Shown here: one piece after another, positions 2,301 through 28,419 of the stretch
Layout: each line of letters opens with the position of its first letter
Position numbering within the stretch: the stretch's first letter is position 1
Source: an uncultured Ignavibacteria bacterium
GTDB taxonomy: Bacteria; Bacteroidota; Ignavibacteria; Tepidaquicellales; OLB5
NCBI GenBank assembly: GCA_937873695.1
Contig: CALMYL010000021.1
Coordinates: 1 to 64,000 of the forward strand
Direction: 5' to 3'
DNA: 64,000 nucleotides
The notes under the pieces: generated by a model
Database searches by the model: none
Told to the model about the DNA's origin: nothing
Seen by the model: only the letters and a program-made list of their open reading frames with translations
Program-made: the position numbers and the translations under genes

Positions 2301-2301
2301 C

Positions 2302-6399: not shown

Positions 6400-6407
6400 A
6401 TTTTTAT

Positions 6408-6528
6408 TGGAGTGAACTGACTGTGTCAGTTCGGGATTATAATTATGATAACACCATATGGTCAGGCAGTCAACACATTTCAAAAATTATTTTAAACAAA
6501 ATGGCATTGACACAGTCAATGCAATCCA
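6408..6528. mobile_element. 121-bp MITE-like element with palindromic inverted ends
   Basis: The ends at 6408-6434 and 6502-6528 are inverted repeats matching at 20 of 27 positions, including an uninterrupted 11-base core (TGACTGTGTCA). Each end also folds by itself: GAACTGAC-TGT-GTCAGTTC at 6414-6432 and GCATTGAC-ACA-GTCAATGC at 6504-6522. No coding capacity. It lies directly in front of the glycosyltransferase gene. Confidence 0.55.
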
Positions 6529-6540
6529 AAAGATATCTAT

Positions 6541-7869: not shown

Positions 7870-8269
7870 ATTTTGATTTAGATTGTGAAGTTGTACATTC
7901 TCCAAATTACATTTGTACCCATACGTACAATAAATAGCTTATTTAAATGTTCTGTTACTTTCTTTTGAGCGATCAAAAGAAAGTAACCAAAGAAAAATCG
8001 CCCGCTGCTGAAAATTACCTGAAATTATTTTCGCTTTATAGGAAAATAAACTTCCTCTGCTATAGCATATTAAGTCCTTCGGCTCGTCACGCTAAAGGCG
8101 TGACTCAAACAAATTTTCCTGTGTTGATTCTGCTCAAATAATTTCCATGACTGCACACGCAGTCAGACGGTAATTTTCAAAGGCGGGTTTATATTAAAAA
8201 TTGTATTATAGTGTTAGGAATTGTAATTGAATTCTCGTTTTTGGCATTTGTGCTTTGGAATTTGGCATT
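7870..8269. other. Intergenic region of stacked palindromes
   Basis: No gene. It holds a perfect 15-bp inverted repeat (7954-7968 with 7973-7987, arms GTTACTTTCTTTTGA / TCAAAAGAAAGTAAC, 4-nt loop), a GTCACGC/GCGTGAC hairpin (8086-8104) and a GACTGC/GCAGTC hairpin (8150-8165). A 64-codon frame at 7947-8141 only reads through these repeats and is rejected as a gene. Confidence 0.7.
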
Positions 8270-11474: not shown

Positions 11475-11552
11475 GTCTCATAAACCAGCTTTCATTATTT
11501 TTAACCGGAATTAAACGGAGAAAATTGTTATTATCAAAAACCATCAAATACT

Positions 11553-12488
11553 ATGCCTATGGGTCTAAATACTACTACTTTTAACATAGATGAATTAATT
11601 TCATCTTATGCAGATAACCAAATTACAGATCCTGAAACAAAGAAACAGATTGAAGACCTTTTAAGCAAAGATCAGAAGCTTAGTGCTAAATACAAAGCGG
11701 AAGTTCTTACAAAAGAGTTATTAAGATCAAGGTTACCTGAAGCGGAGCTTCCAAAAGCAACATATCAGAAAGTGATGTTATCAATTGATAACATGATAGC
11801 TGATTCTAAAAAAAAATACAGTGCAGCCTCAGTTACAGGCAATAATATAGCGCCGGCTGAAACTGAATATCCCTCATTCTGGCAATCAATTAAACAGGCA
11901 TTTACCGAGAAATTCATCGGCGTTCCAAGGTATGCATTTGCCGTACTGGCATTTGTAATTATCGGGGGACTTGTTGTATTTTCGGGCGGAAAGAAAACGC
12001 GCAATCCGTATATACTAACCGGCACTGAGTCAAGTTTAATGGTGCAGGCCGTTAACAGCTTCCATAAGGTATTGAAGGGAGATGTTAAGCCGCAGCTTAA
12101 ATCAAGCAATGCCGCAGAGGTTGAAAAATACGTGATGGAAAAAGCGCACTTCGATCCGTACGTGCCGGTAATAGAAAATTACCAGATAGCAGGCGTGGTT
12201 TGCAATGAGTATAAAGGTCAGGAAATGGCTCATATCATTTATGAGAACAGCGATGGCTCTATGCTCTACATTATGCAGGTGCCGATCTCGGCAGTAAACA
12301 AGAAAAGCCTTGATCTGCCGGATGACGTACAAAAGGAAATATCAAAGGCGCAGTTTTATATGTGCGATGAAGTTGATGAAAACGACTGCACAATGACACT
12401 TTGGTACAAGGAAAACAACGTTTGCGCATCTATGACCACGATGCCTAAACAGGAAATGTACGCAACATTTACAAGATTCAATAAATAA
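11553..12488 (+). CDS. Single-pass membrane protein, possible anti-sigma factor
   Basis: 311 aa. Residues 10-75 (NIDELISSYADNQITDPETK and the following LSKD/KLSAKYKAEVLTKEL) resemble the short helical N-terminal domain of zinc-less anti-sigma factors. One transmembrane helix lies at about 126-146 (YAFAVLAFVIIGGLVVF). The C-terminal half, about 160 residues outside the membrane, has no family I recognise. The role is inferred from position directly downstream of the ECF sigma gene and from topology; no HxxxCxxC zinc motif is present. Two in-frame ATGs (11553, 11559) are possible starts. Confidence 0.6.
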   Translation: MPMGLNTTTFNIDELISSYADNQITDPETKKQIEDLLSKDQKLSAKYKAEVLTKELLRSRLPEAELPKATYQKVMLSIDNMIADSKKKYSAASVTGNNIAPAETEYPSFWQSIKQAFTEKFIGVPRYAFAVLAFVIIGGLVVFSGGKKTRNPYILTGTESSLMVQAVNSFHKVLKGDVKPQLKSSNAAEVEKYVMEKAHFDPYVPVIENYQIAGVVCNEYKGQEMAHIIYENSDGSMLYIMQVPISAVNKKSLDLPDDVQKEISKAQFYMCDEVDENDCTMTLWYKENNVCASMTTMPKQEMYATFTRFNK

Positions 12489-13118: not shown

Positions 13119-13129
13119 GAAGATTAACT

Positions 13130-13173
13130 AAATCTAACAAAAAAGGGGCGTTAGCCCCTTTTTTGTTAGATTT
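13130..13173 (+). terminator. Strong, probably bidirectional terminator
   Basis: A perfect 20-bp stem (AAATCTAACAAAAAAGGGGC and its complement) closes on GTTA, with T-runs on both sides. It lies 11 bp after the thioredoxin-like gene. Confidence 0.9.
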
Positions 13174-13276
13174 TGATATTCATACGCGATACAGCTCAGT
13201 TTACTTTTTGATGGCTTGCCGCTTTATTTCTTTACAGGCGGGCGAGCCACGCCTGCTACAAAGTCCATTAGAGTAT

Positions 13277-13323
13277 AATGCAGAGTCTCTCGCTTCTCAG
13301 AGGACTCTGCATTTATTTTTTGC
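13277..13323 (+). terminator. Hairpin with T-rich tail
   Basis: AATGCAGAGTC (13277-13287) pairs with GACTCTGCATT (13303-13313), followed by TATTTTTTG. The loop TCTCGCTTCTCAGAG holds a smaller stem. It may be a terminator or a copy of a palindromic repeat. The surrounding 13174-13371 holds no gene. Confidence 0.5.
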
Positions 13324-13371
13324 CTTTTTATTTCTGCCTTCTTGACTTACTCTGTTCTAACAGAGGAAGTT

Positions 13372-15966
13372 TTATTTTAGCAGCACCATCTTTTTACTAT
13401 CTATAAATTTATTACCATTCGGTTCTTCCGCTTCTATTCGGTAGAAGTAAACTCCTGACGCATAGTTCGATGCATTAAAATCTACAATGTATGAACCTGC
13501 GGTTTTAAGTTCATAGTTCACAAGCCGTTTTACTTCTCTGCCTAATATATCATAAATTATTATCTTTACCTTTGAATCTTTCGGCAGGTCGTAATTTATT
13601 TTTGTTACGGGATTGAACGGATTTGGATAATTTTGTGATATCTTATATACCAATGGAATATTCTTCGGTTCATTGCCTTTACTGCTGGTATTTGAGCCAA
13701 ATACTTTCCTTATATCTTCCGATACTATCCTTACATGTTGGGTTATGCTTTTTGGCTTTTCAGTCTTTACCACTTGTTTTAATGATTTCATCTGAGTAAG
13801 TTCTTTTGATGCGTTCACATCGCCAAGCTCTGATTTCTCTTCAAGCTTCTTTATCTTCGTTTCATCATCATTCTTTGATATTTCTATCGCAGTATTTATC
13901 GATTTACGTATATCCAGCCTTTGCTCCTTGGTGAAAGGTTTCTTATCGTCGCCCAATTCATCAAATTTATCAAATTCATAATAATTATCAGATTCATTAT
14001 ATTCGTTGTTATTGCTCATTGTTAATTGCTCATTGTCTATTGAACTGCGGGCACCGCCCTGCGGCGCCAGCAATGAAGTTGCCATATAATCCCATCTTGC
14101 GATAAGTCCCTCATAGCTGTAAGGATTCTGGTTTATTATCTGCTGAAATCCTGCCATTGCCTGTGAGTATTCACGCATTCTTACTTTACATTTTAATATA
14201 TAATAATTAGCGCGTTTTACAAGTGATGTATTGCCCGGATGGTTCAATATCAGGTTTTCGTAGAATACCTTAAGGGTATTTGCTGCATTGTATGATGTAT
14301 CGCTTGCAACGGTGGCTAAAAAGAGCTTTGATACTGCAAATATGCTCTGAATGCTATCGGGATATGTGTTAATAAGATCCAGACATTTTGTTTTTGCCTG
14401 TGAGTAATTGCGGTAACGCATTAGTACGCTGATGGTATCGTATTTTTGTTTTGGTGTGGATATTACAAACACATCCCGCCCAAGAAACTGCGAAGCAGTT
14501 TCGAAGTCCCGCCTTGGCGGGATCCCGGACACACTTGAATAACTTCCCCCTGAACCTGAACCGCCTGTGTATATTGTATCATAGATACCATTACCAAGGT
14601 TTATAGCCAGTCCGTCACCGCCGCCGATTATTTCACAGCCGGCCAGGTATGGATTAAAATTAAACGTTATCTGTGAGCCTTGATAGCCTGAGGTTACCAT
14701 ATTTATTGGCGGATCAACGGGAGAACCATCCACCTTAAAGCAATTATTGGTTTCTTCGGTCGTGACTGCTGTGAACATCGGGAAGTAGCCGTATAAGTGG
14801 TAGGAGCTCTGGTCACTTGTAATATTAAAAATATTTTCGCCACCCTCAAGCAAAAAGTATGAACCATCTACATTTATATTATTTGAGCCTGTACCTTCGT
14901 TTGAAATAGTATTCAGTCCGCCGAGAGTAAATGCGCCTGAACTGTTGAGCTTTAGCTCACTGCCGCCTGCGGCAAAGATTCCCATTGATCCGCTTACAGT
15001 CGATGATATTGTATTCTGAACAATATCTATGGAAGATGTTAAAGCGTTTATTCCAATGTAATTATCGGTTATTGTGTTTCCTTTAATTGCTCCGCCGATT
15101 ACACCGCTTAGAAAAACTGCTGTGTTACCCTCATTAAATGTATTATTTTCTATAATTAAGGGAGTTGTTACACCTGCATATGATGATACATTTACCGTTG
15201 GTATTGTTGAACCCGATGAATTAAATGTATTACTGCCTATGTATATATTATTTATTGCTATAAAAGGATTATTAAAACAAATCGCGTTCACTCCGCCTTT
15301 GAGTGAGCTGTTTGTATTAAAAGTACAATTCCGTATATCAACAACGGGGCAATCAATGATATTAACCGCGTATGTTGTATCGTTTGCGAGTCCACTAAAC
15401 GTTGCGCCGTAAATTTTTACTTCGCAGTTGGTAAAGCTGTGGCCGCGCCATGAACCGCCCGGTACCGCATCGCTTGTAATATTCTGCGGAGCTGATGTGT
15501 TCTGGTCGCCTACTGTAAATACACCGCCTGACATTACAAACCTTGATGAATCATTAAAATGTATGGTTGTGTTTGCGCCAATTGTAATATTAAAACCGTT
15601 ATTGTAAACGGGAGCTTCACAGGTGAATGATTCAGCTGAGATATTTTCATCGCCTGCTAGAATACCGCCACCAATCATTACAGGTTCCATTTTAAAAATC
15701 TTTCCTTCGCCCGGGTCAAACCAGCCAAAATCAAGCTGCATTTGCCCCTTAACATATGTTATCACTTGATTCCTGTCAGATATATTTGTTATTTTCCAGT
15801 TTTCATATCTTTCAAGCTGTGTCGCATATTGGTCAAAATATACTTTTACAAATCTTCTGCCCCCATTTTCATTTTCAGAGGGTTTATAGGGTGAGCATCG
15901 CTTGTTCAAGATCATAAAATAATTGGCAATGTCATTCGGGTTTTGCTTAAAAGTCGCTATCTGCAA
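13372..15966 (-). CDS. Beta-helix/TPR-like surface protein with T9SS domain (3-prime part of a frameshifted gene)
   Basis: 864 codons. Residues 80-400 are Asn/Gly-rich with recurrent N.F...G / I.NNTF patterns, typical of a right-handed parallel beta-helix (NVSSYAGVTTPLIIENNTFN; GVIGGAIKGNTITDNYIGIN). Residues 510-640 resemble TPR helices (YRNYSQAKTKCLDLINTYPD). The C-terminus is a T9SS type-A domain (NYPNPFNPVTKINY, YDILGREV, ASGVYFYRIEA, KKMVLLK). There is no signal peptide: the first codons (TTG CAG ATA) begin inside the last codons of the upstream frame, with a 10-bp overlap. Together with the upstream ORF, which has a signal peptide and no sorting domain, this is best read as one protein of about 1,565 aa broken by a -1 frameshift. 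Confidence 0.75.
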   Translation of the reverse strand: MQIATFKQNPNDIANYFMILNKRCSPYKPSENENGGRRFVKVYFDQYATQLERYENWKITNISDRNQVITYVKGQMQLDFGWFDPGEGKIFKMEPVMIGGGILAGDENISAESFTCEAPVYNNGFNITIGANTTIHFNDSSRFVMSGGVFTVGDQNTSAPQNITSDAVPGGSWRGHSFTNCEVKIYGATFSGLANDTTYAVNIIDCPVVDIRNCTFNTNSSLKGGVNAICFNNPFIAINNIYIGSNTFNSSGSTIPTVNVSSYAGVTTPLIIENNTFNEGNTAVFLSGVIGGAIKGNTITDNYIGINALTSSIDIVQNTISSTVSGSMGIFAAGGSELKLNSSGAFTLGGLNTISNEGTGSNNINVDGSYFLLEGGENIFNITSDQSSYHLYGYFPMFTAVTTEETNNCFKVDGSPVDPPINMVTSGYQGSQITFNFNPYLAGCEIIGGGDGLAINLGNGIYDTIYTGGSGSGGSYSSVSGIPPRRDFETASQFLGRDVFVISTPKQKYDTISVLMRYRNYSQAKTKCLDLINTYPDSIQSIFAVSKLFLATVASDTSYNAANTLKVFYENLILNHPGNTSLVKRANYYILKCKVRMREYSQAMAGFQQIINQNPYSYEGLIARWDYMATSLLAPQGGARSSIDNEQLTMSNNNEYNESDNYYEFDKFDELGDDKKPFTKEQRLDIRKSINTAIEISKNDDETKIKKLEEKSELGDVNASKELTQMKSLKQVVKTEKPKSITQHVRIVSEDIRKVFGSNTSSKGNEPKNIPLVYKISQNYPNPFNPVTKINYDLPKDSKVKIIIYDILGREVKRLVNYELKTAGSYIVDFNASNYASGVYFYRIEAEEPNGNKFIDSKKMVLLK
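14473..14524. repeat. Palindromic repeat inside coding sequence
   Basis: Hairpin GAAACTGC/GCAGTTTC (14484-14502) followed by CCCGCC/GGCGGG (14508-14521), with an outer ATCCCGCC arm at 14473. The segment is read in frame within the beta-helix gene as a charged stretch (SGIPPRRDFETASQFLGRD) between the beta-helix and the TPR-like region. The CCCGCCTTG hairpin core also occurs in the intergenic copies at 19617-19631 and 22802-22816. Confidence 0.55.
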
Positions 15967-18062
15967 ATATCTTTCATCTCTGCACTCACAATTGTATTTA
16001 CGGGAGGAACATCGCCTTCCGGATAATCTTCAACACAAGGATATGGTGCAGTGCCCGGCTTATAAGTGTATATATCATAAAAATAAGAATTCTGGTACAT
16101 TAAATTACGTTCAGTAGAAAATCTGTAAATATATGAGCTTGTCTGCCTGTTATCAAAGCTCATCAGTGTCGGCCCCCAATCTTCAAGTCGCTGGTTTATA
16201 CGTTTTAGTGTATCCCACTTAAGCTGTCCGTAAACATTTAGAGCGCGCGGTGTTCCGTTTGGATTTGTAAAGCCTAAAGTATAATCACAAGCGTTAGTAA
16301 TTACCGAGGGGTACCACCAGTAAATGATACCCTTCGCGCCGTAAGATACTGCCATGTTGGTCATCATATTCAGCTCTTCATTTGTAGGCTCACGGTCAAT
16401 TTCGCCGCCGGAGTACCACTGGTGAGCCTGAAGCATCGCTACAAAAGGAATATTCAGGCTCTTTGAAAGCGCGTTGCCGCGCTTCATAAGGAACTGGTAC
16501 ACACCCGCAATATGCGGATCGTTGCGACCGGCTGTATAATCCGGGCTTTCATACGCTTCACAGGTTGTATCCATCTGTCCCTGCAGCCATCTGTCATACG
16601 TTATTGGGTCTGCTTCCTGATACAGGTCTGAAGTGGAAGGATTCAGATTAAATGTTTCAGGTATAAGGCTGTATTGTGAATTTCCTCCGCAATATGAAGG
16701 TGTATCTGCGGTTATAGGGTACGGGTCACCAAGGTAGATCTGCCTCATTTCTGTTCTTTCAAAAAATAACTCCTCTATCATTTCAGGGGTATTAATGGTA
16801 TGCCTTAACCCCCAGGGCATATGGTGGTTGAACTGAGTAAGCTGATCCGCCATAAAGTTAATTTTACCGCCCGTTATGGAATCAATCTTTTTGTTTACAT
16901 AAGCCATGCAGGGTATGTTATTAAACTCAAAAAGCTCTGTGTAAAAATTAAATACATAAGGCGGTACATTTACAGCATTTGCTTCTTCTGTTATCCATCT
17001 TTCAAATTCTTGATCGTTACCTTTCAACAATCTATCCGCCACATCATTTTCAACTTTAATATAATCAATCCACATTTCGCAGTTGCCTGACCATTCAATT
17101 TTAAAATCAGCGTGGGTTGCAAGCGGATGGTCCGAATCACTCACACCCCGTGCATTATAGATCCATGAATCGCCTAAATCACCATGAAATTTTAAATCTG
17201 TCTCTCCAAAAAAATTATATTCTTCTATATAGTGTCCATTATAAGATCCATTTTGGTCAAGGAAGTATTTTGCTTTGATGGTAGTTTGCTTCTTTATTGT
17301 AAAACCATCCTGCTCATATACTAATATCCTGCATACAGGCGTTTCATAATTTGCCGGTATTACAAAGGATTGAGGTATCCTTATCCGCGGCTTCACGTAC
17401 CAGTCACATTCAGAATCGCCGCACCATTCGTTACCGCCGCTTGTCATCTTTCTGCATTGCTCCGAATTTGCCATCAGCCTTTCAAGAACTATTTTTGTAC
17501 CCGGTCCGGATACAAGTTCACTTACATACAGCGCATCCCTTCCTTCGTTAAATTGAATATCCGGTTTCACTTCACCCGTAAAGTTATTAAAAGTATAAAA
17601 CCAATAAGGGTCAGTACCCGGTAATTTCTTTTCAGCCTGGTAAATACTGCTCTGCCCGAATGCGAGCCATTCTATCTTGGGTCTTTGCCAGATAAAGCGC
17701 GTTTGATTATGGTTATTGTACATATCATCTAACGCATTTCGTATATCAGTTACCGGGACAGCATCAAAGAGATGCTCGCCTGTAAAACCAATAGGGGTAT
17801 GCCTGTCAGGATCACCCGGGTAGTTACCAAGTACATCATCCTGAATATATTTATGAGTCGTATTAAATCCTGTTTCGTTATAATATGTGTTATTTGGGTC
17901 AGTACCGTACGGGTTATAAGAATGCATACATCCTATCAGGAATTTATCAGTATATGGAAGAGGCGGCGATGTGGGTTTGGTTTCTTCCTGAGGGATATAA
18001 AAGTTTAAAACTAAAATTGGGGTGAGCAATACAAATGCAATGATATAAAGTTTATTTTTCAT
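15957..18062 (-). CDS. Large secreted protein, possible glycosidase-like (5-prime part of frameshifted gene)
   Basis: 701 aa from ATG 18062 (a GTG at 18065 is also in frame). Signal peptide MKNKLYIIAFVLLTPILVLNF. Most of the protein belongs to no family I can name. Residues 560-650 contain PFVAMLQAHQWYSGGE and AVSYGAKGIIYWWYPS, which resemble the barrel strands of clan-A glycoside hydrolases, but a catalytic Glu pair is not assigned. The frame ends abruptly (EMKDICR, stop) where the -1 frame continues into the 13372-15966 ORF. One extra T in the ATATTTGCAG run (plus-strand AAA at 15965-15967) would fuse them as KDILQIATF. The neighbouring genes upstream are four surface proteins on the same strand. 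Confidence 0.6.
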   Translation of the reverse strand: MKNKLYIIAFVLLTPILVLNFYIPQEETKPTSPPLPYTDKFLIGCMHSYNPYGTDPNNTYYNETGFNTTHKYIQDDVLGNYPGDPDRHTPIGFTGEHLFDAVPVTDIRNALDDMYNNHNQTRFIWQRPKIEWLAFGQSSIYQAEKKLPGTDPYWFYTFNNFTGEVKPDIQFNEGRDALYVSELVSGPGTKIVLERLMANSEQCRKMTSGGNEWCGDSECDWYVKPRIRIPQSFVIPANYETPVCRILVYEQDGFTIKKQTTIKAKYFLDQNGSYNGHYIEEYNFFGETDLKFHGDLGDSWIYNARGVSDSDHPLATHADFKIEWSGNCEMWIDYIKVENDVADRLLKGNDQEFERWITEEANAVNVPPYVFNFYTELFEFNNIPCMAYVNKKIDSITGGKINFMADQLTQFNHHMPWGLRHTINTPEMIEELFFERTEMRQIYLGDPYPITADTPSYCGGNSQYSLIPETFNLNPSTSDLYQEADPITYDRWLQGQMDTTCEAYESPDYTAGRNDPHIAGVYQFLMKRGNALSKSLNIPFVAMLQAHQWYSGGEIDREPTNEELNMMTNMAVSYGAKGIIYWWYPSVITNACDYTLGFTNPNGTPRALNVYGQLKWDTLKRINQRLEDWGPTLMSFDNRQTSSYIYRFSTERNLMYQNSYFYDIYTYKPGTAPYPCVEDYPEGDVPPVNTIVSAEMKDICR

Positions 18063-18142
18063 CACTTTTTGAAGTTTAAGTTATTAATTATGTTTTTGGC
18101 ACCCCTACCTAACGCGAAGTATAATAACCGCTTTGAATTTAC

Positions 18143-19513
18143 TTATTTAATCAAGATCATTTTTTTAGTTTCAGTAAATACCTCCTTTCCATTGTTTACT
18201 GTTAATTTGTAAGAATATGTACCTGAAGATAAACCTGATGCATTGAAATCTATTTCATACTCACCGGCATTAAGTTCATCATTCAGTAATTTCTGTATTC
18301 TCCTGCCTGTTATATCATATATTGTAATTTCTGCATAACTTCTTTTCGTTAACTGAAATTTTATTTTCGTGTTTGGATTAAATGGATTTGGATAGTTCTG
18401 AAACAGTTTAAATTCTTTTGGTATCTCATTGCTTATCTGTTCAATTGCAGTTATCCAAACTGGGTCTCCGCCTGTCGTGGTATGTATCCCTCTTAGTGTT
18501 GTATAAGCCCAACCGTGATTTTTATCGCTAAACTGAATGAAGTAGTATAAAAAATTATTTATTGCTGTATCAGGCACTTGATATTGCCAGTTAACGCCTC
18601 CATTGGTTGTTCTTAATAATATTGCTCTTACCTGACTGTTTGGGTAAAACACTGCATTTCCCGCAGCCCAAAGTGTATCTTTATTTAATAATGCTAGTTC
18701 ATTAATTCCAAGATTCAATAAATCAGGACCCGACGGCACATTTTGAAGTACCCAATTATTTCCCCCATTGGTAGTCTTGTAAATATTGCTTGCGGCTGAA
18801 TACCACCCTGTTAAGCTATCTGCAAATGTAATATCAAAATACCACTGCCCGCTCACATTCAGATTCCAGTTCAAGCCGCCGTTTGTGGTTTTGCGTATGC
18901 TGGGTGAGCCTGAATTATCCGATATAAACCCTATCCGCGCATTATACATATATATCTTCTCAGGGTTCTGGCTCCCTGCACTATATTGCTGTACCCAATT
19001 CGTTCCGCCCGTGGAGGTGAAGAAGACGCCACCAGTGAGTGGATTTGCGGATACTATCCATATATTATCATTATTCAATACACTCATATCCTGAAAAGAT
19101 TCACCTGTACGAAGTGGTGTCCAGTTTGCTCCACCGTTAATTGTTTTATCAAAGCCCAATGTATAACATGCATACCCAGTATCTTGATTTAAAAAATAAA
19201 CTCTGTTATACCCGGGAGTTCCTCCGCCAGTTTGTACTTTTCTAAAATGTATCGTCCAGTTATCACCTGAATTTGAAGTTTTAAGAACAAACATCGTATC
19301 TGTAGTTGATTTATTTGTAACGGCGTAGCCAGTCAAGCTATCCAAAAAGAATATATCTGTGATAGATCTGCTTCCTATATTCGGCATAAACTGCTGGTAC
19401 CAGTTGCCTACTGCTGTTGATGCAGGTGTGCTGTTTAATATTGCAGGCATTAAGGCAAAAGTCAAAAGTGAAAAGGCAAAAATGATGAATAGTATTTTAA
19501 TGTGGTTTTTCAA
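18143..19513 (-). CDS. YCF48/BNR-like repeat surface protein with T9SS domain (paralogue P1)
   Basis: 456 aa from TTG 19513. Signal peptide in residues 1-30. Repeated units contain LDSLTGYAV, LKTSNSGDNW, KTTNGGLNW and RTTNGGVNW, the signature of YCF48/sortilin-BNR beta-propellers (about seven blades). The C-terminal T9SS domain has NYPNPFNPNTKIKF, YDITGRRI, LSSGTYSYKL and KKMILIK. The region 18484-18901 is identical by eye over 418 bp to 19993-20410 in P2, and 18849-19027 matches 22049-22227 in P3 over 179 bp. Most likely an exported binding or structural protein; ligand unknown. Last of four tandem paralogues in transcription order. Confidence 0.85.
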   Translation of the reverse strand: MKNHIKILFIIFAFSLLTFALMPAILNSTPASTAVGNWYQQFMPNIGSRSITDIFFLDSLTGYAVTNKSTTDTMFVLKTSNSGDNWTIHFRKVQTGGGTPGYNRVYFLNQDTGYACYTLGFDKTINGGANWTPLRTGESFQDMSVLNNDNIWIVSANPLTGGVFFTSTGGTNWVQQYSAGSQNPEKIYMYNARIGFISDNSGSPSIRKTTNGGLNWNLNVSGQWYFDITFADSLTGWYSAASNIYKTTNGGNNWVLQNVPSGPDLLNLGINELALLNKDTLWAAGNAVFYPNSQVRAILLRTTNGGVNWQYQVPDTAINNFLYYFIQFSDKNHGWAYTTLRGIHTTTGGDPVWITAIEQISNEIPKEFKLFQNYPNPFNPNTKIKFQLTKRSYAEITIYDITGRRIQKLLNDELNAGEYEIDFNASGLSSGTYSYKLTVNNGKEVFTETKKMILIK

Positions 19514-19680
19514 ATTATCTTTTTGGGATTTTTAAATAATAATTTTACTTAAATTAATGTATTTAATTTGATGTTACAATACTTAATATTCAAGTATTTA
19601 GTATGTTATTTATACTCCCGCCTTGCGGGACTTCTGTTCAAATAGCTATCGCTATTTGATCATCAGCATCTTTTTAGTTT
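19506..19680. repeat. Duplicated intergenic block (copy of 22691-22865)
   Basis: The 152 bp at 19506-19657 look identical to 22691-22842; after one mismatch another 22 bp match. The block spans the start codon region of one paralogue, the whole intergenic gap and the stop region of the next. It includes hairpins TCCCGC/GCGGGA and CAAATAGC/GCTATTTG. It shows that gene and spacer were duplicated as a unit. Confidence 0.85.
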
Positions 19681-21019
19681 GAGTAAACACCTCCTTTCCT
19701 GTTGTTACAGTTAATTTGTAAAAATATGTTCCTGAAGATAAGCCTGCTGCATTGAAATCTATTTCATACTCACCGGCAATAAGTTCATCATTCAGTAATT
19801 TCTGTATTCTTCTGCCTGTTATATCATATATTGTTATTTCTGCGTTACTGTGTTTTAACAATTGAAACTTTATCTTAGTGTTAGGATTAAACGGGTTAGG
19901 ATAATTTTGAAATAGTTTGAAACCTTTTGGCACCTCAGTACTGGTTTGTTCCAATGCTGTGATCCATATAGGGTCGCCGCCTGTTGTAGTGTGTATCCCT
20001 CTTAGTGTTGTATAAGCCCAACCGTGATTTTTATCGCTAAACTGAATGAAGTAGTATAAAAAATTATTTATTGCTGTATCAGGCACTTGATATTGCCAGT
20101 TAACGCCTCCATTGGTTGTTCTTAATAATATTGCTCTTACCTGACTGTTTGGGTAAAACACTGCATTTCCCGCAGCCCAAAGTGTATCTTTATTTAATAA
20201 TGCTAGTTCATTAATTCCAAGATTCAATAAATCAGGACCCGACGGCACATTTTGAAGTACCCAATTATTTCCCCCATTGGTAGTCTTGTAAATATTGCTT
20301 GCGGCTGAATACCACCCTGTTAAGCTATCTGCAAATGTAATATCAAAATACCACTGCCCGCTCACATTCAGATTCCAGTTCAAGCCGCCGTTTGTGGTTT
20401 TGCGTATGCTTGACGAGCCTGAATTATCCGATATAAACCCTATCCGCTCATTAAACATATATATCTTCTCAGGGTTCTGGCTGCCCGCTGAATACTGCTG
20501 TACCCAGTTTGCGCCGCCGGTGGAGGTGAAAAATACGCCGCCAGTAAGACTGCTACTTGATACTAACCATATTGTATTTTCATTTAATACTGCCATATCT
20601 TCATAAGTTGCGGTCGTTGGATCGGAAATTGAAAACCACGAATTCCCACTATCAGTTGTTTTTGTGATTTTTGTACTACCTGTAAAGTGGTCATTACCGC
20701 ATGTGAATCCTGTATTATTATTTAAAAATATTATTTTATTTCTTCCAACAAATTGACCATAACCCGCAAATTGGATGAACCAGTTATCCCCACTATTGGT
20801 AGTCTTCATTACAAATGTTGTATCGTTTTGAAATCTAAAAGGTGTTACGGCCCAACCAGTTAGACTATCTAAGAAAAAAATGTCTGATATAGACCTTCCA
20901 TTTAGGTTCGGCAAAAACTGCTGATACCAGTTATCAACCGGATTTAACGGCATTATAAATGCAAAAGTAAACAGGCAAAAAGCAAAAAATGTGAGCAGTA
21001 TTTTAAAGAGATTATTCAA
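19652..21019 (-). CDS. YCF48/BNR-like repeat surface protein with T9SS domain (paralogue P2)
   Basis: 455 aa from TTG 21019. Signal peptide (ILLTFFAFCLFTFAF), propeller repeats of the LDSLTGWAV / KTTNSGDNW / KTTNGGNNW kind, and a C-terminal T9SS domain (NYPNPFNPNTKI, YDITGRRI, SSGTYFYKL, KKMLMIK). The second half (from about residue 190) is almost the same protein as P1, while the first half differs substantially, so the gene is a mosaic. Its stop codon lies within the CAAATAGC/GCTATTTG hairpin of the shared spacer. Confidence 0.85.
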   Translation of the reverse strand: MNNLFKILLTFFAFCLFTFAFIMPLNPVDNWYQQFLPNLNGRSISDIFFLDSLTGWAVTPFRFQNDTTFVMKTTNSGDNWFIQFAGYGQFVGRNKIIFLNNNTGFTCGNDHFTGSTKITKTTDSGNSWFSISDPTTATYEDMAVLNENTIWLVSSSSLTGGVFFTSTGGANWVQQYSAGSQNPEKIYMFNERIGFISDNSGSSSIRKTTNGGLNWNLNVSGQWYFDITFADSLTGWYSAASNIYKTTNGGNNWVLQNVPSGPDLLNLGINELALLNKDTLWAAGNAVFYPNSQVRAILLRTTNGGVNWQYQVPDTAINNFLYYFIQFSDKNHGWAYTTLRGIHTTTGGDPIWITALEQTSTEVPKGFKLFQNYPNPFNPNTKIKFQLLKHSNAEITIYDITGRRIQKLLNDELIAGEYEIDFNAAGLSSGTYFYKLTVTTGKEVFTQTKKMLMIK

Positions 21020-21336
21020 ACTGGTACGATTTGATTAGTATAAAATAATGCTAAATAATTATAATTACAAACAAAAAGGAAGTCATAATATGGCTGATGC
21101 CACAATGAAGAAATCGCGCCATAGTAGAATTTATCTGTATTAGGAGCAGGCGGAACAGAGGGAGATTGCGTTTCTTTTTGAAAGGTTATAGAAGTTTAAA
21201 ATTAATATTGGGGTTAACAATATCAATGCGATGACATAAAGTTTGTTTTTCATCACTTTTTACGTTTTAGTTATTGGATTTTGTTTTTTATCATCCCTGT
21301 ATACAACCCCCTATAGTGAAATAACTAATATAAAGC
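21020..21336. other. Gap between paralogues P2 and P3, containing a gene remnant
   Basis: About half of this gap is the pseudogene fragment at 21079-21253 described separately. The rest is AT-rich with no reading frame or clear terminator. Confidence 0.6.
21079..21253 (-). pseudogene. 5-prime remnant of a paralogue of the 15957-18062 secreted protein
   Basis: From ATG 21253 the minus strand reads MKNKLYVIALILLTPILILN, against MKNKLYIIAFVLLTPILVLN in the intact gene. After NFY the frame must shift by one base; it then continues QKETQSPSVPPAPNTDKFYY, parallel to PQEETKPTSPPLPYTDKFLI in the intact gene. Similarity ends near 21079, next to P2. The sequence upstream (CACTTTTTACGTTTTAGTTATT) also matches the intact gene's upstream region. 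It is a broken leftover of a duplicated signal-peptide region and would make no functional protein. Confidence 0.75.
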
Positions 21337-22698
21337 TTATTTTATTAAAATCATTTTCTTAGTTTCAGTAAATTCCTCCTTTCCGGTTGTTACAGTTAGT
21401 TTATAAAAATATGTACCTGAAGATAAACCTGAAGCGTTGAAATCTATTTCATATTCACCGGCATTCAATTCATCATTCAGTAATTTCTGTATTCTTCTGC
21501 CTGTTATATCATATATTGTTATTTCTGCATAACTTCTTTTCGTTAATTGAAACTTTATTTTTGTGTTAGGGTTGAACGGATTGGGATGGTTCTGAAATAA
21601 TTTAAATTCCTTTGGTATTTCTGTACTAATTTGTTCAAATGCAGTTATCCATACAGGGTCTCCGCCTGTGGTAGTGTGTATGCCGCCATAAAACCCTAAT
21701 GTATATGCCCATCCGTGATTCTTATCGGTAAACTGAATATAATTGTAAGGTCCGGGAACATAAATTGAAGTATCAGGTATTTGGAATGTCCAGTTAACGC
21801 CTCCGTTAACTGTTCTGTATATTATTCCGCGGGACTGCATCCCGGTTATTATTTCAGCTCCTATTGCAAGCAAAGTATCTTTGTTTATTGCAGAAAATTC
21901 ATTTATGCCTACAGATATTAAATTACCGCCATAAGGTAATACCTGCAATTGCCAGTTTGTTCCGCCATTGGTCGTTTTATAAACATTATTTCCATAAGAA
22001 TACCATCCTGTAAGACTATCTGTAAAAATAATATCTCTGTAATATTGTCCGCTCACATTCAGATTCCAGTTCAAGCCGCCGTTTGTGGTTTTGCGTATGC
22101 TGGGTGAGCCTGAATTATCCGATATAAACCCTATCCGCGCATTATACATATATATCTTCTCAGGGTTCTGGCTCCCTGCACTATATTGCTGTACCCAATT
22201 CGTTCCGCCCGTGGAGGTGAAGAAGACACCGCCAGCAAAACTTTCACCATAGACATACCATCCGGTATCTTTGCTTTTGAAACTTAAATCTTCAATAAAT
22301 ACAGACGGATTTATTGTATTCCAGTTTAGTCCGCCGTTTGTGGTTTTTATTAAACCTGTTCCACCAACAAAACCTGTATTTTGGTTCAAGAACTGAATTC
22401 TTTTAAAAATATAGCCTGTCTGTGCATAATTAATAAACCAGTTATCTCCTGAATCTGTAGTTTTAAGAATCAAAGAAGTATCAGAAATGGTTAACCTGTT
22501 GGAAATTGCATAACCTGTTAAGCTATCCAAAAAAGTTATATCAACAATTTGTCTTCCATTTAAGTTTGGCATCCACTGCTGGTACCAGTTGCCAACGGCG
22601 GGTGAGGCTGGTGTGCTGTTTAATATTGCAGGCAATAATGCAAAAGAAAAAAAGGAGAAAGCAAAAATATAAAGTAGTATTTTGAGGCCATTTTTCAA
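21337..22698 (-). CDS. YCF48/BNR-like repeat surface protein with T9SS domain (paralogue P3)
   Basis: 453 aa from TTG 22698. Signal peptide (ILLYIFAFSFFSFALLPAIL), then propeller repeats and a T9SS C-terminal domain (NHPNPFNPNTKI, where the usual NYPNPFNP has His for Tyr; YDITGRRI; KKMILIK). The first third is nearly identical to P4: 22237-22616 equals 23734-24113 over 380 bp by eye. A middle block matches P1 (22049-22227), and the distal propeller (residues 235-350) is its own. It is thus a mosaic of segments shared with different neighbours. Confidence 0.85.
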   Translation of the reverse strand: MKNGLKILLYIFAFSFFSFALLPAILNSTPASPAVGNWYQQWMPNLNGRQIVDITFLDSLTGYAISNRLTISDTSLILKTTDSGDNWFINYAQTGYIFKRIQFLNQNTGFVGGTGLIKTTNGGLNWNTINPSVFIEDLSFKSKDTGWYVYGESFAGGVFFTSTGGTNWVQQYSAGSQNPEKIYMYNARIGFISDNSGSPSIRKTTNGGLNWNLNVSGQYYRDIIFTDSLTGWYSYGNNVYKTTNGGTNWQLQVLPYGGNLISVGINEFSAINKDTLLAIGAEIITGMQSRGIIYRTVNGGVNWTFQIPDTSIYVPGPYNYIQFTDKNHGWAYTLGFYGGIHTTTGGDPVWITAFEQISTEIPKEFKLFQNHPNPFNPNTKIKFQLTKRSYAEITIYDITGRRIQKLLNDELNAGEYEIDFNASGLSSGTYFYKLTVTTGKEEFTETKKMILIK

Positions 22699-22836
22699 AT
22701 TATCTTTTTGGGATTTTTAAATAATAATTTTACTTAAATTAATGTATTTAATTTGATGTTACAATACTTAATATTCAAGTATTTAGTATGTTATTTATAC
22801 TCCCGCCTTGCGGGACTTCTGTTCAAATAGCTATCG

Positions 22837-24198
22837 CTATTTTATCATCAGCATCTTTTTAGTTTCAGTAAACACCTCCTTCCCTGAATTTATTATCAGT
22901 TTGTAAAAATATACTCCTGAAGCATACCCATTACCATTAAAATCTACTTCATAAGTGCCTGCATTCTGTTTTTGATCTACAAGTACTTCAATTTGCTTTC
23001 CCAAAATATCATATATTAAAAGTTTCACATTTGACGTTTCACTTTTCACGTTGTATTTAATACTTGTTTCCGGATTAAACGGGTTTGGATAGTTTTGGAA
23101 TAATTTATATTCCTTCGGAATTTGAGAAGAGATTTGATTTATTCCTGTAAGCCAAACAGGGTCGCCGCCTGTTGCTGTATGAATGCCCCTTAATGTAGTA
23201 TATGCCCAACCGTGATTTTTATCTGCAAACTGAATGAAGTAGTATACAAAATTATTTATTGCTGTATCGGGCACTTGATATTGCCAGTTAACTCCTCCAT
23301 TGGTTGTTCGTAATAATATTGCTCTTACCTGGCTGTTTGGGTAAAATACTGCATTTCCCGCAGCCCAAACTGTATCTTTATTTATTAGTGCCAGTTTGTT
23401 AATACCAAGATTCAATAAATCGGGACCAGTGGGCACATTTTGAAGTACCCAGTTGTTTCCGCCATTGGTAGTCTTGTAAATATTGCTTGCCGCTGAATAC
23501 CACCCTGTTAAGCTATCTGCAAATGTAATATCAAAATACCACTGCCCGCTCACATTCAAATTCCAATTCAAGCCGCCGTTTGTGGTTTTCCGTATGCTTG
23601 ATGAGCCTGAATTATCAGATATAAAACCAATCCTCGCATTATACATATATATCTTCTCAGGGTTCTGGCTCCCGGCTGAATACTGCTGTACCCAGTTTGC
23701 ACCGCCGTCGGAGGTGAAGAAGACGCCGCCAGTAAAACTTTCACCATAGACATACCATCCGGTATCTTTGCTTTTGAAACTTAAATCTTCAATAAATACA
23801 GACGGATTTATTGTATTCCAGTTTAGTCCGCCGTTTGTGGTTTTTATTAAACCTGTTCCACCAACAAAACCTGTATTTTGGTTCAAGAACTGAATTCTTT
23901 TAAAAATATAGCCTGTCTGTGCATAATTAATAAACCAGTTATCTCCTGAATCTGTAGTTTTAAGAATCAAAGAAGTATCAGAAATGGTTAACCTGTTGGA
24001 AATTGCATAACCTGTTAAGCTATCCAAAAAAGTTATATCAACAATTTGTCTTCCATTTAAGTTTGGCATCCACTGCTGGTACCAGTTGCCAACGGCGGGT
24101 GAGGCTGGTGTGCCCATTATTATTTCAGGCATTATTATGCCTGTTACAAGTATTACTGTAATTGCAAGCGTAAGCGATATTTTAAGCAGTTTTTTCAA
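22837..24198 (-). CDS. YCF48/BNR-like repeat surface protein with T9SS domain (paralogue P4)
   Basis: I start this gene at TTG 24198 (453 aa). This matches the TTG starts and lengths of its three paralogues and gives a proper signal peptide (LLKISLTLAITVILVTGII); the frame is open to 24288, adding 30 unlikely residues. N-terminal third as in P3, propeller centre as in P1/P2. The C-terminal T9SS domain belongs to a different subtype (NYPNPFNPETSIKYN, YDILGKQIEVLVD, ASGVYFYKL, KKMLMIK), so the sorting domain was exchanged independently of the propeller. First gene of the array in transcription order; an unassigned leader of about 90 bp precedes it. Confidence 0.85.
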   Translation of the reverse strand: MKKLLKISLTLAITVILVTGIIMPEIIMGTPASPAVGNWYQQWMPNLNGRQIVDITFLDSLTGYAISNRLTISDTSLILKTTDSGDNWFINYAQTGYIFKRIQFLNQNTGFVGGTGLIKTTNGGLNWNTINPSVFIEDLSFKSKDTGWYVYGESFTGGVFFTSDGGANWVQQYSAGSQNPEKIYMYNARIGFISDNSGSSSIRKTTNGGLNWNLNVSGQWYFDITFADSLTGWYSAASNIYKTTNGGNNWVLQNVPTGPDLLNLGINKLALINKDTVWAAGNAVFYPNSQVRAILLRTTNGGVNWQYQVPDTAINNFVYYFIQFADKNHGWAYTTLRGIHTATGGDPVWLTGINQISSQIPKEYKLFQNYPNPFNPETSIKYNVKSETSNVKLLIYDILGKQIEVLVDQKQNAGTYEVDFNGNGYASGVYFYKLIINSGKEVFTETKKMLMIK

Positions 24199-24439
24199 AT
24201 TGTCTGGAATTTGATTATTGTAAATTAATATAATTTCATAAAATATACAAATTAATAATAAACATGATATTTTAGCGAGAAAGGACATTTACCCTGCCGA
24301 TATAATCGGCAAATTTTATGTATATTTGTAATTGTAAGCATTAATAGATTAATTGAAATTAACCTAAAAATTTCGTAAATTTATTAGTTTATCGGCAATA
24401 GATGCCGGTAAAATACCTGTTTTTACATAGTACAATCCA

Positions 24440-24523
24440 GCCCGGATGGTGAAATTGGTATACACGCTGTGTTCAGGGCGCAGTTCCGGTTACGGAGTGC
24501 GAGTTCGAGTCTCGCTCCGGGCA
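24440..24523 (+). tRNA. tRNA-Leu (anticodon CAG)
   Basis: Acceptor stem GCCCGGA / TCCGGGC, D-arm GTG...CAC with GG in the loop, anticodon stem CTGTG/CGCAG (one G-T pair) closing loop TTCAGGG with anticodon CAG. There is a long variable arm TTCCGGTTACGGAGT, typical of class II tRNAs, and a T-arm GCGAG-TTCGAGT-CTCGC. The discriminator is A; CCA is not encoded. Confidence 0.95.
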
Positions 24524-24546
24524 CTATAAAAATAAATTAAAATTGA

Positions 24547-26331
24547 ATGTCCAGTGCAATCAGGAAGAAATGGACAATATCAAGCGCAGCGGATGAAGAA
24601 AAAGTTAAAATACTTTCTCAGGAGATAAATGTTCCCTCCTCACTTGCCGGAATTCTTGTTACGAGGAAGATCCACTCACGCTCTGATGCGAAGAAGTTTT
24701 TCGTCCATGATCTGAAAAATCTCTATGACCCGTTCCTTATGAAGGGAATGGAAAAAGCATCCGAAAGGATCATAGAGGTCATAAAGAATAAAGAAAAGAT
24801 CCTTATCTTTGGCGACTACGATGTAGACGGTACATCGGGGGTTTCCATGTTCCACACATTTTTAAGAGATCTAGGCGTACCCAACGAAGTTTTTATACCA
24901 GATAGGTTTACAGACGGCTATGGCCTATCCAACACAGGGATAGATCACGCGAATTCGCTTGGCATAAAGCTTATTGTTGCCATCGATTGCGGCATCACCG
25001 CTGTTGATAAAGTGGAGTATGCCTCCTCCCTTGGAATTGATATGATAATCTGCGACCATCACCAGCCGCCCGAAACAATACCAAACGCATACGCAATACT
25101 TGATGCTCTTCAGGCGGATTGTAATTATCCGTTCAAGAGTCTTTGCGGTACCGGCGTGGCGTTTAAGCTCATACAGGCAGTATGCCGGAAGCTTGAGCTT
25201 GATGACTGGATGGGTCTGCTTGATTTTGTAGCCGTTGCAACGGCTGCGGATATGGTTCCCGTAATTGATGAGAACAGAACACTCATAAGCTACGGCTTTA
25301 AGCAGATACTTAATAACCCCAGGCCCAGCTTTGCCACGATATTCAAAAATTCCAGCCTAAAGCTTGAGCATATCACAACATCAAATGTTGTCTTCACTAT
25401 CGGTCCGCGTATTAACGCAGTTGGCAGACTTGGTGACGCGACGCGTGCTGTAAAATTCCTTACCAGCAAAACAATTGAAGATGCCGAAGAGTTAATGAGC
25501 GTTCTTGAGTCGGAAAATTCTAACCGTAAGAAAATTGACAGCGAAATTTATCTGCAGGCGCAGAGTACTTACGAAAATTATAAAATTGAATCAGTTAACA
25601 GTGATGCTAAGGATGATGTTGCAATTGTGCTCCATAATCCTGAGTGGCACCCCGGCGTGCTTGGCATAATAGCTTCAAGAATGGTTGAGAAGTATTATAG
25701 GCCTTCAATTATTCTCACTACGTTCAACGGTTACGCAAAAGGTTCAGCGCGCAGTATAAATAATTTCAATATTTACGAAGCAATTAAGCGCACATCGGAA
25801 GAATGCGGAGCGGTTGTTCAGTTCGGCGGCCATTTCCACGCAGCTGGCATTGAAATAGAAATTGAAAAGGTCGAGGAGTTCCGGAATACATTTAACAGGA
25901 TAGCCAAAACGATCATTAACGATACAGTGAACGGCAAAGAGCTTCTTGTGCCTGAAATTAAGGTTGATGCTGAAATAGATGTATCAGAGGTAAACCAGCG
26001 TTTTGTTAAGATATTAAGCCACTTCGAGCCGTTCGGCCCGGGTAATATGACTCCCATATTCTTAACCCGTGACCTTGTTATTGTAGGTGACCCGAAGACG
26101 TATAACGGTTCAACTACAGTGTTTAAAGTCCGTAAGGGCATACAAAACGGTAACAGGTTTGATAATTACAGTTTTGATTGTGTGTACTACCAGTCACCTG
26201 ATCTTGATGAAACATCGCGTTATCATTTAAAGACCGGAACAAGGCTTGATATAATATATTCCGTTGAAGAGAATCACTGGAATGGTAATACGAAGACGCA
26301 GTTCAGGATAAGAGACCTGAAGATTAATTAG
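24547..26331 (+). CDS. recJ: Single-stranded-DNA-specific exonuclease RecJ
   Basis: 594 aa, cytoplasmic 5-prime to 3-prime ssDNA exonuclease acting in recombination and mismatch/base-excision repair. The DHH-family motifs are visible: GDYDVDGTSG (motif I, residues 95-104), AIDCGIT (motif II), CDHHQPP (motif III DHH) and, in the DHHA1 domain, QFGGHFHAAGIEI (residues 425-437). The C-terminal OB-like domain (PFGPGNMTPIFLTRDL) completes the RecJ architecture, at usual length. It starts 24 bp after the tRNA-Leu gene and may be co-transcribed with it. The next genes (yebC, ruvC, ruvA) also concern recombination. Confidence 0.96.
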   Translation: MSSAIRKKWTISSAADEEKVKILSQEINVPSSLAGILVTRKIHSRSDAKKFFVHDLKNLYDPFLMKGMEKASERIIEVIKNKEKILIFGDYDVDGTSGVSMFHTFLRDLGVPNEVFIPDRFTDGYGLSNTGIDHANSLGIKLIVAIDCGITAVDKVEYASSLGIDMIICDHHQPPETIPNAYAILDALQADCNYPFKSLCGTGVAFKLIQAVCRKLELDDWMGLLDFVAVATAADMVPVIDENRTLISYGFKQILNNPRPSFATIFKNSSLKLEHITTSNVVFTIGPRINAVGRLGDATRAVKFLTSKTIEDAEELMSVLESENSNRKKIDSEIYLQAQSTYENYKIESVNSDAKDDVAIVLHNPEWHPGVLGIIASRMVEKYYRPSIILTTFNGYAKGSARSINNFNIYEAIKRTSEECGAVVQFGGHFHAAGIEIEIEKVEEFRNTFNRIAKTIINDTVNGKELLVPEIKVDAEIDVSEVNQRFVKILSHFEPFGPGNMTPIFLTRDLVIVGDPKTYNGSTTVFKVRKGIQNGNRFDNYSFDCVYYQSPDLDETSRYHLKTGTRLDIIYSVEENHWNGNTKTQFRIRDLKIN

Positions 26332-26444
26332 TAATGATCAATGAGCCTTCCTCCTTTGGAGTAAGGTTTCGCCACAAAAGTGTGGCTCAAGAATTACGAA
26401 TTCACAAAACAAATTTTAAAAAGTAATAATATTCATTTTTAAGT

Positions 26445-27200
26445 ATGTCAGGACACTCGAAGTGGTCAACAATAAAGAGGAAAAAGGGCGCAATTGATGC
26501 GGCCCGCGGTAAAGTATTTACCAAGATAATAAAAGAAATCACAGTTGCGGCAAGAATTGGCGGCGGCGATGTAGAGGCGAATCCGCGTTTAAGATTAGCT
26601 GTTAACAGCGCGAAATCGAATAACATGCCCGCCGATAATATTACACGCGCCATTAAAAAAGGTACCGGCGAGCTTGAAGGTGTAAGTTATGATGAAATAA
26701 CCTACGAAGGATACGGACCCGGCGGTGTAGCGCTGATAATTGAATCAATGACAGATAATAAGAACCGTACGGTGGCAGAGCTGCGGCATTTGCTTTCCAA
26801 ACATGGCGGTAATCTTGCGGAATCAGGCGCGGTTAGCTGGAACTTTGAACGAAAGGGTGTGATAACTGTTACAAAGGGTACTTACACTGAAGATGACCTA
26901 ATGAATGTGATACTTGATGCGGGTGCGGATGATATGACAGATGAAGATGATTTTTTTGAAGTGACCGCTTCACTGGAAAACTTTGAGACAGTACGAAAGG
27001 CAATTGAAGCTTCATCGTTAAACGGAGCAAAGATAGAAAGCGCATCACTGCAGTACGTGCCAAAACAGACAACAAAAGTTGAAGGCGGCGCGGCGGAATC
27101 CACAATAAAGCTGATAAGCGTGATTGAAGATAATGATGATGTGCAGAATGTGTACTCAAATGCCGATATTGATGAAAAAGTAATGGAAGAATTTGGATAA
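26445..27200 (+). CDS. yebC: YebC/PmpR-family protein (TACO1-like)
   Basis: 251 aa. It opens with MSGHSKWSTIKRKKGAIDAA, the family hallmark, and contains KSNNMPADNITRAIKKGTGE and YEGYGPGGVALIIE. The family was described first as transcriptional regulators; more recent work on close relatives indicates help in translating proline-rich stretches. YebC commonly precedes ruvC, as here. The acidic segment around 160-175 (DADDMTDEDDFFEV) is typical. A 113-bp gap with a GCCACA/TGTGGC hairpin (26371-26386) separates it from recJ. Confidence 0.95.
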   Translation: MSGHSKWSTIKRKKGAIDAARGKVFTKIIKEITVAARIGGGDVEANPRLRLAVNSAKSNNMPADNITRAIKKGTGELEGVSYDEITYEGYGPGGVALIIESMTDNKNRTVAELRHLLSKHGGNLAESGAVSWNFERKGVITVTKGTYTEDDLMNVILDAGADDMTDEDDFFEVTASLENFETVRKAIEASSLNGAKIESASLQYVPKQTTKVEGGAAESTIKLISVIEDNDDVQNVYSNADIDEKVMEEFG

Positions 27201-27238
27201 GGTAATACAATTACAAATTTCAAATTACAGATTTAGAA

Positions 27239-27796
27239 TTGATAATACTTGGAGTTGATCCCGGAACGCTTTTTACTGGTTATGCTGTAATCAGCGGTGT
27301 GAATGAAAAGCTGAAGATGCTGTGCTGTGATGTAATAAAAATACCCGCCAAGAATAATTTTCCAATAAGATTAAAACAGATATATGACCGGCTGGTTGAT
27401 GTAATTGAAGAATACAAGCCGGATGAATTTGCCATTGAAACAGCTTATTACGGCAAGAATGTTCAGTCAACATTAAAGCTTGGACATGCAAGGGGAGTAT
27501 CAATTCTTGCGGCTGTCAATAAACAGATTCCCACCACAGAATACTCACCCCGCGAAGTCAAGAAGTCTGTTTCGGGTCTTGGTGCGGCATCCAAAGAGCA
27601 GGTGAAGTTTATGGTTTGCAGAATATTGAATATTGATATAAATTCGCTGCCAAAACAGAGCGATATTTCCGATGCAATAGCTGTAGCTATATGCCATCAC
27701 AATAGAATGCTTGGCGGAAATGTAAAGAAATCCAAAGGCAGCAATTGGGAGGTATATGTGAAAGAGAATCCAAAGAAAGTTAAAGTACAGAAGTAA
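27239..27796 (+). CDS. ruvC: Crossover junction endodeoxyribonuclease RuvC
   Basis: 185 aa from TTG 27239 (TTG ATA ATA CTT GGA), giving the family opening MIILGVDPGTLFTGYAV. RuvC resolves Holliday junctions by paired nicking with RuvAB. The four acidic active-site residues are Asp7 (GVDPG), Glu67 (AIETAYYGKN), and the pair in SDISDAIAVAICH near residue 143. The lysine-rich tail is unremarkable. The 38-bp gap after yebC contains a 25-bp sequence repeated at 45738-45762. Confidence 0.95.
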   Translation: MIILGVDPGTLFTGYAVISGVNEKLKMLCCDVIKIPAKNNFPIRLKQIYDRLVDVIEEYKPDEFAIETAYYGKNVQSTLKLGHARGVSILAAVNKQIPTTEYSPREVKKSVSGLGAASKEQVKFMVCRILNIDINSLPKQSDISDAIAVAICHHNRMLGGNVKKSKGSNWEVYVKENPKKVKVQK

Positions 27797-27807
27797 CAAT
27801 TTAGGAA

Positions 27808-28419
27808 ATGATAGATTACATAAAAGGAAAACTTGTATGCAAAAAAACAGCAGGCCTGATAGTTGAATCCGGCGGCATTGGCTACAGTATAAACTGTACA
27901 CTTGGAACAATTGAAAATACAGGCAGTGTTGGCGATGAAGTGAAGATCTCTGTTCACCTGAATATTAAAGATAACCCGTTTTCTGTAACGCTCTACGGCT
28001 TCCGTGATGAAAATGAAAGGGAGTGTTTCAGGCAGATAATTTCAGTATCAGGTATAGGTCCAAAAACAGGTTTGAGTATCCTTTCAGCAATCAGTTACAA
28101 CGAGCTTATTGATATGATATCAAAAGGGAATTATCATCCATTGACCTCAATTTCCGGAGTTGGTAAAAAGACCGCTGAAAGGCTGGCAGTTGAGCTGAAG
28201 GATAAGCTGGGCAAGATAGAATCAGATACGCAAAGTGCAAGTGTTAATACCGGTAAGCTTGGCGAGCTTGGCAAGGCATCGGAAGTAATAGGGGCATTAA
28301 TGGCACTTGGTTACAACAGGCTTGAAGCCGATAAGATGGTACGCGCGATATCATCACGCAGTGATTTTATGGATATGCCGACAGAATCAGCAGTACGTGA
28401 AATTTTAAGAGGAAAGTAA
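27808..28419 (+). CDS. ruvA: Holliday junction branch-migration protein RuvA
   Basis: 203 aa. The N-terminal OB domain (MIDYIKGKLVCKKTAGLIVE, then GIGYSINCT) is followed by two helix-hairpin-helix motifs (SVSGIGPKTGLSILSA, SISGVGKKTAERLAVEL) that grip the junction, and a C-terminal domain (ALMALGYNRLEADKMVRAI) that contacts RuvB. RuvA tetramers hold the junction while RuvB hexamers drive branch migration. It lies 11 bp after ruvC. ruvB is not in the window. Confidence 0.96.
   Translation: MIDYIKGKLVCKKTAGLIVESGGIGYSINCTLGTIENTGSVGDEVKISVHLNIKDNPFSVTLYGFRDENERECFRQIISVSGIGPKTGLSILSAISYNELIDMISKGNYHPLTSISGVGKKTAERLAVELKDKLGKIESDTQSASVNTGKLGELGKASEVIGALMALGYNRLEADKMVRAISSRSDFMDMPTESAVREILRGK

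Follow-up and report, generated by a model that had tools for sequence, protein, structure and literature searches.

A tandem array of Ycf48-like propeller genes with T9SS sorting domains in an uncultured Ignavibacteria bacterium, probably diversified by homologous recombination

Results

Four tandem genes for putative surface propellers

The window, by which we mean the whole stretch of 64,000 nucleotides analysed here, belongs to the genome of an uncultured Ignavibacteria bacterium (G000; 3.78 Mb in 30 contigs, scored 99.9% complete and 0.4% contaminated), whose closest named relatives in a genome scan were MAGs with the label Ignavibacteria. The window begins, at the contig start, with a perfect 138-bp tandem repeat of 2.4 copies (1-331). 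On the minus strand it carries four tandem paralogous genes, P1 (18143..19513), P2 (19652..21019), P3 (21337..22698) and P4 (22837..24198), the last of which adjoins tRNA-Leu and recJ. All four are intact full-length open frames, each with its own start. For P4 a TTG start at 24198 is favoured by the alignment with the paralogues, the open frame beginning with the ATG at 24288.

To the AlphaFold2 model of P2 (pLDDT 85.5) the best PDB match was Ycf48 (E 1.6e-11, TM 0.76 by target length). A sequence-profile search agreed with this structural match, and seven Asp-box motifs were matched in P2 and in P3. P1-P4 thus encode Ycf48-like propellers, seven-bladed as judged by their motifs. The model of the mosaic protein P1 retains the propeller fold (pLDDT 83), and the models of P2 and P1 place a hydrophobic helix, a candidate Sec signal peptide, near the N-terminus (residues 3-21 and 2-28, respectively). 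The Ycf48 equivalog, that is the photosystem II assembly factor, was ruled out for all four proteins, which reach 31-43 bits with the NCBIfam profile and stay far under its cut-off of 326 bits.

The type A T9SS sorting domain (PF18962 and TIGR04183) was found above the curated cut-off in each of P1-P4. A first-pass annotation of this DNA had assigned the sorting domain of P4 to another subtype. This domain is divergent, with 56-60% amino acid identity to those of P1-P3, yet it is of type A and represents a divergent lineage inside that family. The translocon protein SprA is encoded on another contig of the same genome (C28; 916 bits, neighbours in frame), and P1-P4 would be exported to the surface by the T9SS.

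Exact blocks within diverged paralogues

Identity among the four genes is patchy, as had been noticed in the first-pass annotation. An exact block of 419 bp is common to P1 (18483..18901) and P2 (19992..20410), and starts one base before the 418 bp first given for it. The exact blocks of 380 bp in P3 (22237..22616) and P4 (23734..24113) and of 179 bp in P1 (18849..19027) and P3 (22049..22227) were recovered just as first described. We found a fourth exact block, previously missed, which is mostly intergenic: 152 bp spanning the P2/P1 gap and the P1 leader (19506..19657) are identical to 22691..22842 in the P4/P3 gap. All these blocks lie on the minus strand. In the first copy of the fourth block 107 bp are also present on contig C5, and at the second copy 137 bp (22736-22872) recur at C5:5156-5292.

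In terms of the propeller, the P1/P2 block covers blades 5-7, starting slightly ahead of Asp-box 4 and reaching Asp-box 7; the P3/P4 block covers blades 1-3, between the end of the signal region and a point shortly before Asp-box 3; and the P1/P3 block, a blade-4 module, extends from Asp-box 3 to slightly beyond Asp-box 4. P1 in this way has its block of blades 5-7 in common with P2 and its blade-4 block in common with P3, and P3 combines blades 1-3 identical to those of P4 with a C-half of its own, closest to that of a gene in a congener (G010:C171a). We make no statistical claim on the position of block ends at Asp boxes because conserved motifs themselves lengthen exact matches.

The segments outside the blocks are 45-75% identical. 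Exact matches so long cannot arise by chance, and descent from a common ancestor does not by itself explain them next to segments so diverged. Silent sites, on which the first-pass annotation had proposed a check, gave a strong contrast. At 73 silent sites blades 1-3 of P3 and P4 do not differ at all (pS at most about 0.04 as the 95% upper bound), and dS is 0.06 both for blades 5-7 of P1 and P2 and for the blade-4 module of P1 and P3, whereas the adjoining segments of the same gene pairs range from dS 0.4 to saturation. In 3,000 run-length permutations the longest shared run of polymorphic sites was at most 24 for P1/P2 and at most 18 for P3/P4, against 150 and 212 observed. With the N-half data, approximately unbiased (AU) tests rejected the C-half grouping (p 3e-5); with the C-half data they rejected the N-half grouping (p 1e-7). 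A clade of P1 and P2 was not rejected with the N-half data (p 0.25), and therefore the claim of recombination rests on the other tests. The permutations and the AU tests reject a single shared history of P1-P4. Uniform divergence of the paralogues is ruled out by the patchy identity and the permutations.

The cassettes are under purifying selection, as silent sites saturate while dN remains low, and therefore novelty arises from recombining preserved halves. This selection does not look like point-mutational immune escape.

An old duplication and a second locus

The spacer between P3 and P2 (21020..21336, minus strand) contains a degenerate remnant of the gene lying after P1, a copy of its 5' end. 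Because this stub, absent from the first-pass annotation, sits between P3 and P2, the order P4-P3-stub/P2-P1-gene is the trace of a tandem duplication of about 3.19 kb, whose unit comprised two propeller genes and the start of the next gene. The duplication is old, since outside their common block P1 and P3 differ by a dS of about 0.8 in the signal peptide and the C-terminal sorting domain (CTD). The regions upstream of P1 and P3 are identical. The gene following P1 is represented by an ORF of 702 amino acids (15957..18065, minus strand), the 5' end of which was duplicated along with the array. It overlaps a T9SS ORF of 864 amino acids (13372..15966, minus strand), which probably represents the 3' portion of that gene, cut off by a frameshift. 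The relative on C5 is a single open frame of 1,196 amino acids and shares an exact block of 224 bp with the window (16699-16922). The two overlapping ORFs at 13372-18065 look frameshifted, by a real mutation or a sequencing error.

Further related genes of the genome are found on C5 (one, 68% identity to P2) and on C28 (one, 56%). On C5 a stretch of 1,195 bp is repeated without mismatch at a spacing of 1,390 bp, and the gene at 6635-7921 has the N-half of the gene at 5257-6531 and the C-half of a stub located at 8025-8750. Such a hybrid is what an unequal crossover within two tandem genes would be expected to produce. By its sequence this unequal crossover is very recent and independent of the events in the array; it duplicated gene halves and made a hybrid. 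Contigs C5 and C11 start with the same 47 bases (C5:1-47 = C11:9-55), a sign of an assembly break at a repeat.

A perfect repeat of 1,195 bp is hard for short reads, some contigs of this genome terminate within or next to repeats of this sort (C5 begins inside the duplicated gene), and related contigs break at the recJ/tRNA-Leu locus. These observations speak for an assembly or binning artefact: repeats may have been collapsed, paths joined into chimeras, or one paralogue overwritten by another during polishing. However, the block ends vary in place and length and the homologous flanks are diverged, mosaics arise independently in other assemblies including the low-contig genomes G002 and G009, and the completeness and contamination scores of the genome are good. 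We consider an artefact highly improbable.

Polarity and mechanism of the exchange

Since both partners carry the identical block, copying is needed and not reciprocal exchange. A gene of a congener (G001:C306) has the N-half and C-half combination of P2 (75% and 88% amino acid identity), and because of this blades 5-7 were probably transferred from P2 to P1. A second congener gene, G005:C25, joins a P4-like signal peptide (92% nucleotide identity) to P4-type blades 1-3 (77%), and the signal peptide of P3 is closer to that of P1. These features make P4 the probable source of blades 1-3 of P3. In G001:C306 (L047), tandem paralogous ORFs of 274-288 amino acids, barrel-like as in the outer membrane, lie at 2222-6749 upstream of the P2-like gene, a neighbourhood unlike that in the window.

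The first-pass annotation had put forward gene conversion or unequal recombination. The silent-site contrast, the run-length permutations and the conflict between segment trees strongly support this reading, as do the crossover on C5 and the same pattern in other species. We think it likely that the array is a locus at which T9SS-exported Ycf48-like propeller genes swap pieces by homologous recombination. The sequence shows that an old unit of about 3.19 kb was duplicated in tandem and that entire blade stretches were later copied unchanged between neighbours, probably by nonreciprocal gene conversion or by unequal exchange through the general recombination machinery. The conserved 5' leader with the signal peptide, the Asp-box motifs, the blade-4 module and the CTD may have served as homology handles, which would keep the swapped products exported and folded. 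Of the possible agents, general homologous recombination is the simplest. The genome encodes DprA, the presence of which is compatible with DNA uptake. The genes recJ, yebC, ruvC and ruvA adjoin the array (24547-28419); this proximity of recombination genes is probably a coincidence because congeners lacking the array also keep recJ next to the tRNA.

The first-pass annotation had also compared the array with phase and antigen variation in other bacteria. One-way segmental copying among tandem surface-protein genes does resemble programmed systems in which donor cassettes feed an expression site frequently within a population, and some of the blocks are very recent. Against such a system stand four full-length open frames with starts of their own, the identity of the regions upstream of P1 and P3, by which no single expression site is evident, and a truncated copy seen only once, on C5. 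No invertase or resolvase was found, and the search for a tyrosine or other site-specific recombinase on C21 and C5 was negative. The analogy is so far unsupported, and we regard programmed variation as quite improbable. The search for inversion sites gave only weak, short inverted repeats, none of them convincing, and no Rfam element was found within the island that holds the array. A site-specific inversion system was ruled out, there being neither a linked recombinase nor convincing inverted sites.

A diversity-generating retroelement (DGR) could likewise make variable proteins, and the genome does have one reverse transcriptase gene beside candidate variable proteins. This gene, however, belongs to a prophage-like stretch on C20, where it has candidate targets of its own, and the array shows whole-block copying and not scattered changes. 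On these two grounds a DGR was ruled out as the source of the array, and there is next to no chance that it or a site-specific system (no resolvase; no tyrosine recombinase on C21 or C5) makes the variation. The prophage-like stretch is a candidate DGR in its own right, unrelated to the array: at C20:142000-150000 (L088; positions 1966-4159 and 5852-7357) the reverse transcriptase ORF lies beside two ORFs with a common SGSGLSYD...VPARLC end.

The island and its counterparts in related species

The array forms part of a variable island (13121..24293) between a thioredoxin-like gene and tRNA-Leu/recJ, with the tRNA-Leu (CAG; 24440..24524, plus strand) as a conserved edge. At this position six congeners (G002, G003, G006, G009, G010 and G012) have no array, a family gene is present in G005 and G011, and short traces are seen in G008 and G001. 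In these last four genomes the contig ends less than 2 kb away on the array side. Between G005, a sister species, and the window, recJ is 92% identical, the tRNA with its spacer 98% and the leader with the signal peptide 92%; past the signal peptide identity falls to about 60% in the blades and is 70% in the CTD.

Congeners carry the same kinds of propeller segments in other combinations. In G010, the gene on C19 is 93% identical to C167a in the N-half and 62% in the CTD, and 55% and 85% identical, respectively, to C167b. Mosaics within one genome were also detected in G010:C171 and G002 and, more weakly, in G011, which has little within-genome run-length signal. Between G009 and G011, blades 1-3 and 5-7 are at a dS of about 0-0.2 against 0.84 for recJ, and the blade-4 module and the CTD are far more diverged than these blades. 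The G011 gene comes from a MAG contig of 6.4 kb, which could be misbinned; the mosaic within that gene is independent of binning. Between G003 and G010, blades 1-3 are at a dS of 0.26-0.50 against 2.34 for recJ. In both pairs the blade blocks are far younger than the species, and this sharing points to exchange between species.

Similar tandem neighbours with common motifs may convert each other without adaptive value, and such neutral concerted evolution would also leave mosaics. Neighbours do exchange most, and CTD and body sharing is seen between other adjacent T9SS cargo genes as well, so that a general side effect is possible. The homogenisation is patchy, however, and leaves very different halves next to each other; distinct combinations are met repeatedly in several species, and blade blocks cross species; and at one locus the bodies diverge between a fixed leader and a better-kept CTD. 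We regard a purely neutral origin as unlikely, while giving it some weight.

When selected stretches with other T9SS arrays of the genome were compared, bodies were common to genes with different CTDs, or CTDs common to different bodies. P1-P4 thus stand as a clear instance of a wider habit among the T9SS cargo genes of this genome. A cargo pair at C17:43000-58000 (L087) shares 868 bp at 97% with different ends (2853-3716 and 11109-11970), and sharing restricted to the T9SS CTD, over 266-285 bp at 92-94%, was seen in L073 (C17; 7304-7569 and 8702-8967) and L078 (C8; 2173-2457 and 3105-3389).

Discussion

Pathogens provide the best-known cases of surface proteins in which homologous recombination has produced mosaics. 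The same patchwork is now seen in propellers predicted to be exported by the T9SS of an Ignavibacteria-related bacterium, in an array whose history can be read: an old duplication, recent conversions, a fresh crossover, divergence of bodies at one locus where the ends stay fixed, and blade blocks common to more than one species. A literature search gave no report of T9SS mosaics in Ignavibacteria, although such an absence is weak evidence. Arrays of this kind may also account for the contig breaks in these genes in relatives.

The function is less certain than the mechanism. Our best guess, at about even odds, is that the array serves to diversify displayed binding proteins over evolutionary time, for adhesion, for the capture of substrates or in encounters with phages or predators. 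More tentatively, and with the weight of our judgement against it, a genus-wide pool of propeller halves might move between species and be spliced into T9SS surface genes at fixed handles. If so, cells or sister populations should show ever new propeller combinations, and the pool would be an environmental counterpart of the cassette-type surface variation of pathogens. The array would be a well-defined site at which to follow the pace of surface-protein reshuffling in an uncultured population.

Among known proteins, P1-P4 resemble the photosystem II assembly factors Ycf48/HCF136, their best PDB matches, in fold and in the Asp-box propeller. They differ from them by their T9SS CTD, and a photosystem function is not implied. 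Among known recombining systems, those of the cassette type (vls, MgPa, pilE) combine segmental nonreciprocal copying with a single expression site and silent truncated donors. The first feature can be inferred for the array from one assembly and its relatives; the second was not seen. In Borrelia, vls and vmp undergo one-way segmental copying between surface-protein cassettes, and fixed upstream and downstream homology regions have been proposed as crossover points for vmp (PMC11499132; PMC6011951). The array likewise has segmental one-way copying within a surface-protein family, but the Borrelia layout of silent cassettes and one expression site was not seen in it. The MgPa adhesins of Mycoplasma genitalium have seven-bladed propeller domains that are varied by segmental recombination between repeated copies, with the MgPar sequences as donors (PMC2169797; PMC9262362). 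Here too putative surface proteins with propellers recombine segmentally between gene copies, a likeness in mode. M. genitalium uses a single expression site and truncated donors, and its variation has been observed in passages and patients, whereas the array in the window consists of full-length genes. In Porphyromonas gingivalis, recombination and allelic exchange in T9SS surface proteins (the adhesin domains of Kgp, RgpA and HagA, and others) give mosaics unrelated to strain phylogeny (PMC5266723). Common to the two cases would be that domains of T9SS-exported surface proteins are diversified by homologous recombination. In P. gingivalis the cargo consists of proteases and adhesin domains and the variants are mainly alleles across strains of one pathogen; in the array, by contrast, tandem Ycf48-like propellers appear to exchange parts with their neighbours and across the species of an uncultured genus.
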